Source: Paraphaeosphaeria minitans
Lineage: Eukaryota > Ascomycota > Dothideomycetes > Pleosporales > Didymosphaeriaceae
Direction: 5' to 3'
DNA: 64,000 nucleotides
NCBI GenBank assembly: GCA_015832175.1
Contig: WJXW01000003.1
Span: 2,480,001 to 2,544,000, forward strand
Below the pieces are notes generated by a model that searched no databases, was not told where the DNA came from, and saw only the letters and a list, made by a program, of their open reading frames with translations. Positions 7,010 to 58,967 of this stretch are shown one piece after another. Each line of letters begins with the position of its first letter. Positions within the stretch are counted from its first letter, which is position 1. The translations under genes and the position numbers were made by a program.

Positions 7010-7013
7010 AAAA
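7010..7013 (-). terminator. RNA polymerase III terminator of tRNA-Arg
   Basis: A run of four T on the minus strand begins about five bases after the tRNA discriminator base. This is the minimal Pol III stop signal and suggests the gene is, or was, transcribed. Confidence 0.6.
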
Positions 7014-7017
7014 GAAC

Positions 7018-7159
7018 CATCGACGGTGGGGCTCGAACCCACAGCCTTTGGATGTCTCATGCGGTGCATGTAGAAGTCCAACGCGCTACTGTTAAGGAAT
7101 TAGTGTGAGTCAAATCGGCTCATATGAGATGCAAAGCTTACCCATTGCGCCACGCCGAC
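7018..7159 (-). tRNA. tRNA-Arg (UCU) with two introns, one of them in the D-loop
   Basis: On the minus strand a complete cloverleaf folds once two inserts are removed. The acceptor stem GTCGGCG pairs with CGTCGAT (two G-U pairs). The D-stem is GCGC/GCGC. The anticodon stem TTGGA/TCCAA holds loop CTTCTAA with anticodon TCT. The T-arm is GTGGG-TTCGAGC-CCCAC. A 17-nt intron (7054-7070) sits at the canonical 37/38 position. A second, 53-nt insert (7089-7141) interrupts the D-loop after AATGG. It starts GTAAGC, has CTAAT 11 nt before the end and finishes AACAG, like a fungal spliceosomal intron. Box A (TGGCGCAATGG) stays intact upstream of the insert and box B (GGTTCGAGCCC) is normal. Removing both leaves 72 nt. 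Discriminator is G at 7018. Confidence 0.85.
7089..7141 (-). other. Spliceosomal-type insert in the D-loop of tRNA-Arg
   Basis: This 53-nt insert has donor GTAAGC, branch-like CACTAAT and acceptor AACAG, the same signals and length as the mRNA introns elsewhere in this window. Nuclear tRNA introns cut by the Sen endonuclease normally sit between positions 37 and 38, so this position is unusual. Its exact ends are inferred from splice consensus and the expected D-loop. Confidence 0.7.
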
Positions 7160-35124: not shown

Positions 35125-37369
35125 ATTGATGCCAACGTTCTTTGCGCAAATAGCGTCGTACCGTACTGCTACTTTAGGAGTTTCCAGTGTACTTTACAAG
35201 GGATCACTTCGACGACCTAGATTCCTCTTCCAAAACATTTGGGTGTCCGATTATAGCTTTCATGATAATCCGAGCAATCGAAGACGATTTTTATGGATCG
35301 ATGGAACGCTGCAATGCGCCAAATCGAGAGTGAGGTCGCGGGGTCTCTCCTACCGTGCCACGGCTGGGTATTTACAGGTACAGTTAACATAAAATTGGGG
35401 CCGTGAATGGCGTAGTTCGGTTTGAATAGTATTTGAGATATCGCCTGCTGTAGGAAAAAGGAGCGTGACAAGCACGATTCTGGGCGGCAACTCCTGCGCC
35501 GAGGATTACGCCTGTCGCCACTCCTGGTCTGGGGTAACGCAGCGGTTTCACTCATGGTAGTGATGGGTGCGGTCAGGCTTCCAGTTATAGAGACGATCAC
35601 ACAATCTGGATTTCCATCACCTTTGAGGAACACATGCATCGCACCTTTCGATTCCTTTGCGACTGCATCTAGATCAATATTACGTACGTCGTACGAGCTC
35701 CGATAAACTCCTGGCCTGCAAAGGAGGCAGACAGATTACTTCATGCAGTGAGCTACCTCACAGCTAAAAAGCTGATGGCGATAAATCATGCAAAAGTTAT
35801 CTGCTAGAACGATTGCCTCCATCTCGATGAAAGCGTTGGGAACTTCACCGAAAAAATGTTCTGTCTATAATATATTCAACTCTGGCCACTCCCCTCACAT
35901 ACGACCACAGGACCTTGAAAACAGAGCTTCCCGTTCGCTCAGCTGTACTTAAGCAGGGTACCGGCGGATTAGTACGGAAATCGGTGACGGTTCCGGAATC
36001 CCCGCTGTCGTATGTTTTTTTTGGCAACGTTTGCTCAGGTGGGGTCGATGGACCTAGTCAGCGGTGTGGGTCGTGCGCAGTTTGGTGAGTGACCACCACC
36101 ACATGATATGTCTACATTATGAAGCCTCGCTTGGTAGTCCTAGCTGCATCTTGAAAACTTGGCTTCGCAAGACTGGAAAAGATCTCAAAGTTTTATTTTG
36201 CGGCTTAGGGTAGAGGGTCTCCGTAGACTGGTACGGTAAAACTTTCGTTGTTCGTATGAGTTTTGTGCGGTTAGTAATCGAATCCAGACTTCGAAGTAGT
36301 GACACCTAGATTTCAGCCCATTTATCATACCCAATGGCACCAAAATATATTTGACATAAAATTGGAAAATATCAGATACAAAAATAGGACATGATATAAA
36401 AGTAGCGATCAACTCTCTTACCTACTTAATCCGGCTTTCTCAAAACGAAGGACAAAACGACACGGAACTCTAAACAAGGATACTAAAGAAAAATTTCCTT
36501 CCTTGCCATTTAATCGCACGCCTCCTTTATACCCTTCCACATCTTGTATTCCTTTGCTGTAATTCCAATATTTTCGCTCGTTTCCGTAGGCAAGGGTTGT
36601 AAAAAAGCTCAAAAATAGCTCACTTGTGGTCGCACTTGCCGTCGTTGTCGCCATTATAATATTGTACTCTAGATACCAACAGCTGTGATTTCCGCACAGC
36701 GCGACCCCAGATCTCGTTAGGCGTGGCATGGCCGTGGTACTCACACGCCTTTAGCTGATCCTGACGAAATCCGCCACCTTGATTCGATTCACATTCGCGA
36801 ATGATAAGACTCCGGAAGAACTCCTTCAGCAGGTTCTCGAATATCTCCATCATTACTCAAGCATCCACCTCATCTATCAGAAATATTAATCGCTAGTTAA
36901 CCCACACAATTATAACCACCACCCCATAATTTAGTACACAACTCTATCTCCGTACGCGTACGAAAGTTTTGAATGTAAGGTTGTAGCCTAAGGTAGTTAT
37001 TATTGGTTATGGCTAACTACAACACACGTGTCCAAAGTCTCGCCGTCTTGATAGCTAGTCTAATTTCCGTGGAAGATCAAGGTCCGGGCTGGCGCAATCC
37101 CATCTTAGAATAGCGCTACTTATATCCAGCTTCGAGCTATCAGGCCTACCAAACATTCGTGAGAATCAGCAAGCTATTGAAGAGCGTTCAGCGCAGATAG
37201 GATTTTGTACCATTCGCCCCTAGAGAATCACGAGCGCGCGTGTCGCCATCAGAAAACCGAGAAAAAACATTATTACCACACCCTAATCTGCTCTTCGAGA
37301 ATGCTCAGCTACAATTATCTCTACGAACCTCCCTTCCACTTTTCCTTTCACACCGCACGCAACCCTTCC
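35125..37369. other. AT-rich gene-poor region
   Basis: No supported gene apart from a possible BTB remnant at 36620-36853. The strand composition resembles decayed sequence. Confidence 0.35.
36620..36853 (-). pseudogene. Possible C-terminal remnant of a BTB-family protein
   Basis: A 77-codon frame starts MMEIFENLLKEFFRSLI and contains RECESNQGG and ACEYHGHATPN. Short fungal BTB proteins often end with a hydrophobic helix, then Cys-x-Tyr-His and a His-rich tail, as in the gene at 4179-4979. There is no BTB domain upstream, so this is at best a remnant; it may be a chance frame. Confidence 0.28.
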
Positions 37370-46189: not shown

Positions 46190-46291
46190 GGCTCAATGGT
46201 CTAGTGGTATGATTGTCGCTTCGGGATTTTACGCCTGGATTCAGTGAATCTGTTCTGTGACAGGCCCCGGGTTCGAATCCCGGTTGAGCCC
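46190..46291 (+). tRNA. tRNA-Pro (CGG) with canonical intron
   Basis: The acceptor stem GGCTCAA pairs perfectly with TTGAGCC (discriminator C at 46291). The anticodon stem is GTCGC/GTGAC with loop TTCGGG plus T38, giving anticodon CGG. The T-arm is CCGGG-TTCGAAT-CCCGG. A 30-nt intron (46226-46255) sits between positions 37 and 38. The spliced length is 72 nt. Box A and box B are intact. Confidence 0.93.
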
Positions 46292-58818: not shown

Positions 58819-58967
58819 TGTATGTATGTATGTATGTATGTATGTATGTATGTATGTATGTATGTATGTATGTATGTATGTATGTATGTATGTATGTATG
58901 TATGTATGTATGTATGTATGTATGTATGTATGTATGTATGTATGTATGTATGTATGTATGTATGTAT
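58819..58967. repeat. (GTAT)n microsatellite, about 37 units
   Basis: A nearly perfect tetranucleotide array of about 150 bp, the longest simple repeat in the window, ending in GGATCCATCC. The length and purity suggest high mutability. Confidence 0.95.

Follow-up and report, generated by a model that had tools for sequence, protein, structure and literature searches.

Candidate spliceosomal introns in nuclear tRNA genes of the fungus Paraphaeosphaeria minitans

The only tRNA-Arg(UCU) gene found in Paraphaeosphaeria minitans carries a 53-nt insert in its D loop. Judged from sequence, this insert is, with a probability of about 0.88, a U2-type GT-AG spliceosomal intron in a working Pol III tRNA gene and one of at least ten in the genome. 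The gene lies on contig 3 (WJXW01000003.1) within a stretch of 64,000 nucleotides that was analyzed as a whole, here called the window, and the searches were extended to the 47.45-Mb assembly of 30 contigs. Textbook nuclear tRNA introns are located at position 37/38, and a protein enzyme specialized for them does the cutting. To our knowledge spliceosomes are confined to Pol II transcripts, with the exception of U6 and some rRNAs.

The interrupted tRNA-Arg(UCU) gene

Structure and boundaries of the gene are summarized in Table 1. A full cloverleaf on the minus strand after removal of two inserts had been proposed in a first-pass annotation of the window and was confirmed base for base by string matching and by ARAGORN. 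The coordinates of exons and inserts are exact string matches on the minus strand, and the acceptor, D, anticodon and T stems all close once both inserts are out. The same annotation had taken the 17-nt insert for an ordinary 37/38 intron, in agreement with its position and its A-I type pair, and had read GTAAGC, a CTAAT branch and CAG in the D-loop insert at 7089-7141, which holds letter for letter. Boxes A and B, identified by their consensus, the stems and the probable terminator (TTTT at 7013-7010) are intact, as had been claimed. Without the D-loop insert ARAGORN returns tRNA-Arg(tct), with the insert the gene is misread as Met, and no tRNA was reported by this program when the whole window was scanned. 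The Rfam model RF00005 gives a partial, sub-threshold match at 7089-7025 with 22.9 bits against a cut-off of 29 bits.

Table 1. Coordinates of the window tRNA-Arg(UCU) gene and location of the tRNA genes with GT..AG inserts outside 37/38
Feature	Location	Strand	Basis or description
tRNA-Arg(UCU) gene, both inserts included	7018..7159	-	sequence; cloverleaf once inserts removed
Exon 1, tRNA positions 1-19	7142..7159	-	acceptor 5' strand and D-arm 5' part
53-nt GT-AG insert, D loop 19/20, read as spliceosomal intron	7089..7141	-	GTAAGC 5' site, CACTAAT branch, AACAG 3' end
Predicted branch-point adenosine	7100..7100	-	ACTAAT fits fungal RCTRAY (consensus from accessible part of PMC5832005)
Exon 2, positions 20-37, last base A37	7071..7088	-	sequence; anticodon TCT 7074-7072
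Canonical 37/38 intron, 17 nt	7054..7070	-	position; A-I type pair present, 3/4 central pairs
Exon 3, positions 38-73	7018..7053	-	sequence
Box A TGGCGCAATGG, intact, upstream of D-loop insert	7142..7152	-	sequence; consensus
Box B GGTTCGAGCCC, intact	7029..7039	-	sequence; consensus
TTTT, probable Pol III terminator	7010..7013	-	sequence
Ser-CGA	C4		insert 3/4 (acceptor stem)
Thr-CGU	C10		insert 5/6 (acceptor stem); split after GCCCG
Leu-CAG (L111)	C10		insert 10/11, inside box A
Arg-UCU	window		insert 19/20
iMet	C1		insert 38/39
iMet, two genes	C9 and C17 (L090)		insert 46/47
His, three genes	C2, C1, C6		insert 53/54

Removal of the 53-nt insert restores the D arm TGGCGCAATGGTAGCGCG, and the arm TGGCGCAATGG followed by TAGCGCG stands uninterrupted in the Arg-CCU (L011) and Arg-UCG (L076) genes of the same genome. 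Two placements of the insert lead to this D arm, GT..AG or, one base earlier, GG..CA. In composition-preserving shuffles of this insert alone, GT..AG ends arose with a probability of approximately 0.004 and the set GTRNGY, CTRAY and YAG with approximately 1e-5. The distance from the branch A to the last G amounts to 11 nt. The absence of a TATAWA motif in the 140 nt upstream and a downstream T run of just TTTT are counted against a working gene.

The anticodon loop-to-box B pattern with UCU occurs at 52 places genome-wide, all of which were read with their flanks, and the window gene is the only one among them whose anticodon stem and T stem each form five of five pairs. Three further places (two of them identical in sequence) reach four pairs in each stem; they show no visible D arm and were rejected by ARAGORN. 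With the spliced tRNA-Arg(UCU) as DNA query the assembly returned the window gene as its single match, and a 156-nt query for copies of the intron elsewhere matched itself alone. Neither the pattern nor the DNA query revealed another intact Arg-UCU gene in the whole assembly, which the first-pass annotation had named as one of the signs of a pseudogene. AGA is an ordinary codon, with 31 of 4002 codons in nine open reading frames of the window. Because no second Arg-UCU gene was found genome-wide and AGA is in ordinary use, the window gene is very likely needed by the cell.

Other small features of the window include an uninterrupted 5S rRNA gene at 35897-36016 on the plus strand (71.5 bits) and a tRNA-Pro(CGG) gene at 46190-46291, also on the plus strand, with a long canonical 37/38 intron and a second copy at C16:457889-457988. 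A mir-297 match at 58870-58942 is an ATGT microsatellite and as such a simple repeat. Among named proteins, the glutathione reductase encoded in the window is closest to that of Didymosphaeria variabile, with 93% identity over 79% of the query, in accord with a Pleosporales fungus.

Ten tRNA genes with mRNA-type inserts

A GT..AG insert outside 37/38 was observed in 10 of about 67 nuclear tRNA genes, a total that includes a few weak or degenerate copies. The inserts are distributed over seven positions (3/4, 5/6, 10/11, 19/20, 38/39, 46/47 and 53/54), none of which equals the canonical site, and each of the ten was verified base by base in the genomic DNA. The gene count is composed of an Rfam tRNA search with at least 58 matches (62 of 1307 candidates scored; 54 nuclear-type and 4 mitochondrial-looking) and of 13 added nuclear genes, namely the window Arg-UCU, iMet on C17, four Phe, Thr-CGU on C11, three Gln, two Pro and one Glu-CUC. 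The box-B pattern alone occurs at 340 places in the genome and was left out of the count. From nine guessed tRNA sequences Phe alone matched the genome and from five more none did; tRNA genes for Trp, Tyr, Val, Asp and Met-e were not found with guessed query sequences.

Some loci met during these searches are unusual in other respects. L113 (C10:840122-840236, minus strand) resembles a tRNA gene but is odd, as its anticodon arm holds a long G+C-rich insert that lacks GT-AG ends and U33 is missing from the expected place. L084 (C12:1506744-1506816, plus strand) is a diverged, intronless tRNA-Glu(CUC)-like copy with 31.1 bits and possibly a pseudogene. Four mitochondrial-looking tRNA genes at C3:2840217-2853194 are situated on a contig of nuclear size, pointing to a possible nuclear copy of mitochondrial DNA or to joined mitochondrial DNA.

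Every copy found is interrupted for Arg-UCU (1/1), iMet (3/3), His (3/3) and Leu-CAG (1/1), and an uninterrupted iMet junction of 22 bases was not present in the whole assembly with up to two mismatches. For His and Leu-CAG the status as only copies rests on DNA queries of limited reach and a partial Rfam list, the Leu-CAG query having failed to list three Leu-AAG genes that share its 25-nt 3' end. No intact synonymous copy was found for these four families; for Thr-CGU and Ser-CGA such copies are present, with one uninterrupted Thr-CGU gene on C11 and one Ser-CGA copy (L077) without the 3/4 insert.

The complete set of GTRNGY, RCTRAY and YAG occurs in all ten inserts, which are 49-66 nt long, and the branch A precedes the last G by 10-12 nt, within the 6-36 nt before the 3' end expected of such a branch. 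The length lies inside the range of 49-131 nt spanned by six mRNA introns of the same genome. These were read in the window (two in glutathione reductase, two in a gene near 44.8 kb, one each in a dioxygenase and folylpolyglutamate synthase), their boundaries being set by reading frame and homology. GTRNGY and YAG are found in 6/6, CTRAY in 5/6 and the stricter RCTRAY in 3/6, with an A-to-G distance of 10-13 nt in the introns with a recognizable branch. The D-loop insert follows the style of the mRNA introns around it, as the first-pass annotation had stated. In comparison, 32 canonical 37/38 introns of 6-34 nt include one with GT at the start, one with AG at the end and none with the full set. 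This control comprises the parsed ARAGORN genes and two window introns; wrong or intronless parses (e.g. L026, L030, L065, L067, L068, L079), L080 as one of the ten genes, the Phe, Thr-CGU and His introns, and those of Gln on other contigs were omitted. The joint probability of GT..AG in shuffles has a log10 of -9.4 for the first four sites and of -17.3 for all seven. Since the last three sites were spotted via their splice signals, -9.4 is the fairer figure, and both values assume independent sites.

The boundaries are supported by comparison among gene copies. The iMet exons agree across C1, C9 and C17 despite introns at 38/39 or 46/47 (BLAST identity of 97-100% over the exon pieces), and the junctions are fixed because each gene shows the other's junction uninterrupted. 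Similarly, the acceptor sequence GCCCGCATGGCTTAG is uninterrupted in Thr-CGU on C11 and split at 5/6 in the C10 copy, which fixes this boundary. One alternative placement exists in nine of the ten inserts and none in iMet on C1, and GT..AG is always among the options. After splicing, the acceptor stems of Ser, Leu and Thr form 7/7 pairs with G-U counted. ARAGORN recognized a tRNA in 6/6 representatives after removal of the inserts, four of them with the right identity (Arg, Met, His and Leu). For spliced Ser-CGA no full anticodon was given and for spliced Thr-CGU the 37/38 intron was misplaced, so that both anticodons are our own reading. With the inserts kept, nothing was reported for five of the six, and Arg was read as Met.

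The intron bodies have diverged to different degrees. Both 46/47 introns of iMet are 64% alike and keep GTAMGT, ACTAAC and CACAG. Among the His introns two pairs were compared, with a similarity of 89% and 76%, and GTAGGT, TACTGAC and the final ACAG are kept in all three. Canonical 37/38 introns also occur in Arg-UCU and, by our own reading, in His and Thr-CGU. In the His genes box B is kept, as the final G of the intron substitutes for G53, and long T runs follow downstream of all three. In Ser-CGA, Leu-CAG and Thr-CGU a TATAWA motif precedes the very short 5' exon by 38-47 nt and the tRNA body by 94-100 nt; with TATAWA at 35-60 nt in just 9 of 32 uninterrupted genes, this promoter test gives weak support.

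Candidate routes of removal

The first-pass annotation had left the choice between the spliceosome and a second cut by the Sen endonuclease. Its suggestion of a real mRNA-type intron is supported by splice and branch signals in ten of ten inserts, and its Sen option is disfavored, as a bulge-helix-bulge (BHB) core with four of four pairs is not complete in any of them. At seven inserts, with two placements each, at most two of the four core pairs are formed. Over three placements Ser reaches at most 2/4, Leu at most 3/4 (in one placement) and Thr 0/4. The four-pair test is weak alone: of 12 canonical introns picked by hand from the same genome, 11 have the A-I type pair but only 1 shows all four pairs. 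Taken together, the signals, the absent full core and the acceptor-stem sites favor the spliceosome as the likely agent over a second Sen cut.

Sen-cleaved non-canonical tRNA introns, as in Cyanidioschyzon or nucleomorphs, with mRNA-like ends that are coincidental or secondary, would nevertheless have some precedent. Ectopic tRNA introns of some eukaryotes are ascribed to Sen-type enzymes in the accessible part of PMC4090602, many Guillardia introns are without a defined BHB according to the excerpted text of PMC3978253, ordinary 37/38 introns also occur in some of the ten genes, and one Leu-CAG placement has three core pairs. In iMet on C1 the anticodon loop would likewise have seven bases after Sen cleavage at 37/38, with G38 for A38, a point that we count against the spliceosome. 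We regard this origin as improbable all the same, given full mRNA-intron signals in 10/10 inserts versus 0/32 introns at 37/38, the lack of four core pairs in any insert and a length of just 3-24 nt for the Guillardia inserts (PMC4090602, accessible part). In addition, the inserts at 3/4 and 5/6 split the acceptor stem, so that an enzyme of the ruler type would meet no cloverleaf before their removal.

Even less probable is a window gene that is a pseudogene with an insertion, or an insert that is an artefact of assembly or population. Eukaryotic D- and T-arm insertions are usually read as pseudogenes because synonymous genes exist (PMC4090602, accessible part), but the genome-wide searches revealed no further Arg-UCU gene here. 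Moreover, every iMet and His copy found is interrupted, with no intact iMet junction within two mismatches, and they cannot all be dead; the exon stems are intact, and the signals are kept though the intron bodies diverged. The mature tRNA might also keep the insert, its D loop being enlarged accordingly, which would agree with removal being itself a prediction from sequence. However, like inserts split the acceptor stem and, at 53/54, the T arm, where keeping them would destroy the tRNA, and the spliced Arg-UCU D arm equals the uninterrupted one of Arg-CCU, so that retention is the most remote of these explanations.

For the spliceosomal intron we infer the following course, including the order of its steps. 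Directed by boxes A and B, which are both intact, Pol III would transcribe the whole gene. Recognition of GTRNGY, the branch RCTRAY and YAG by the nuclear spliceosome would lead to removal of the insert as a lariat, and the RNA freed from the insert would then fold into the cloverleaf. After folding the ends would be trimmed by RNase P and tRNase Z, and any 37/38 intron would be removed by the Sen endonuclease and ligase.

Related systems and meaning for tRNA maturation

Several known systems share single aspects with these genes. According to the accessible text of PMC10484740, the U6 RNA of S. pombe carries an mRNA-type intron and is similar in being a small structured Pol III RNA. It differs as a component of the spliceosome itself with the intron near catalytic bases, whereas several unrelated tRNAs are interrupted here at seven positions. 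The U6 gene of P. minitans, the single match among 47 of 2663 candidates scored (L098, C1:3840467-3840568, 102 nt), is intronless, which is counted against a spliceosomal origin of the tRNA inserts. In lichens, ectopic spliceosomal introns reside in fungal non-mRNA genes as well and can be removed by yeast (PMC8527467, accessible part); they belong to Pol I rRNA instead of Pol III tRNA. The U3 snoRNA of fungi is interrupted in 138 of 310 genes; the introns show YAG ends and, in 129 of the 138, an RCTRAC branch. The 2017 paper on these genes, as far as its accessible part extends, cites U3 and U6 as the sole known examples of small structured RNAs in which introns are frequent (PMC5832005). The resemblance lies in a structured RNA gene with an RCTRAC-type branch and YAG ends; unlike the tRNA genes, U3 is a snoRNA with nearly all introns in one 5' stem-loop.

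A 2014 review, in its accessible part, treats eukaryotic D- and T-arm insertions as pseudogenes with the exception of nucleomorphs (Guillardia, 3-24 nt) and Cyanidioschyzon (PMC4090602). Similar to our genes, Cyanidioschyzon merolae, nucleomorphs and some archaea possess introns off 37/38, including D and T arms and sometimes a second intron. In contrast, those introns are linked to Sen-type endonucleases and BHB-like motifs or are very short, and GT-AG or branch signals are unmentioned in that part of the review. The canonical nuclear 37/38 introns occur in some of the same genes (Arg-UCU) and differ by their length of 6-34 nt (n = 32), an A-I type pair in 11/12 and the spliceosomal set in 0/32. 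The accessible parts of PMC3978253, PMC8450103, PMC4033280 and PMC11782384 do not mention such tRNA introns. Among the literature matches listed, from a library with few subscription journals and no preprints, none described spliceosomal introns in tRNA genes of the nucleus.

The introns of iMet on C17 (L090) and Leu-CAG (L111, C10) have their first 14 nt, GTAAGTTCAATCAA, in common. This identity is a hint that introns may have spread between tRNA genes, perhaps via reverse splicing.

If the spliceosomal origin holds true, two splicing systems would meet in one transcript of essential tRNA genes, and the spliceosome would act on Pol III-made tRNA precursors. This would also explain why such genes are missed by tRNA finders, with ARAGORN blank on 5/6 unspliced representatives and several of the genes appearing in Rfam as partial or sub-threshold matches only. 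Protein synthesis in the fungus probably depends on the spliceosome for its tRNAs. On the present gene structures it appears likely that in this lineage the spliceosome has become obligatory for tRNA maturation, affecting initiation (iMet), the decoding of His, AGA and one Leu codon, and that short introns spread among the tRNA genes. The supply of initiator tRNA would then be tied to splicing, and the translation capacity would be coupled to the activity of the spliceosome.
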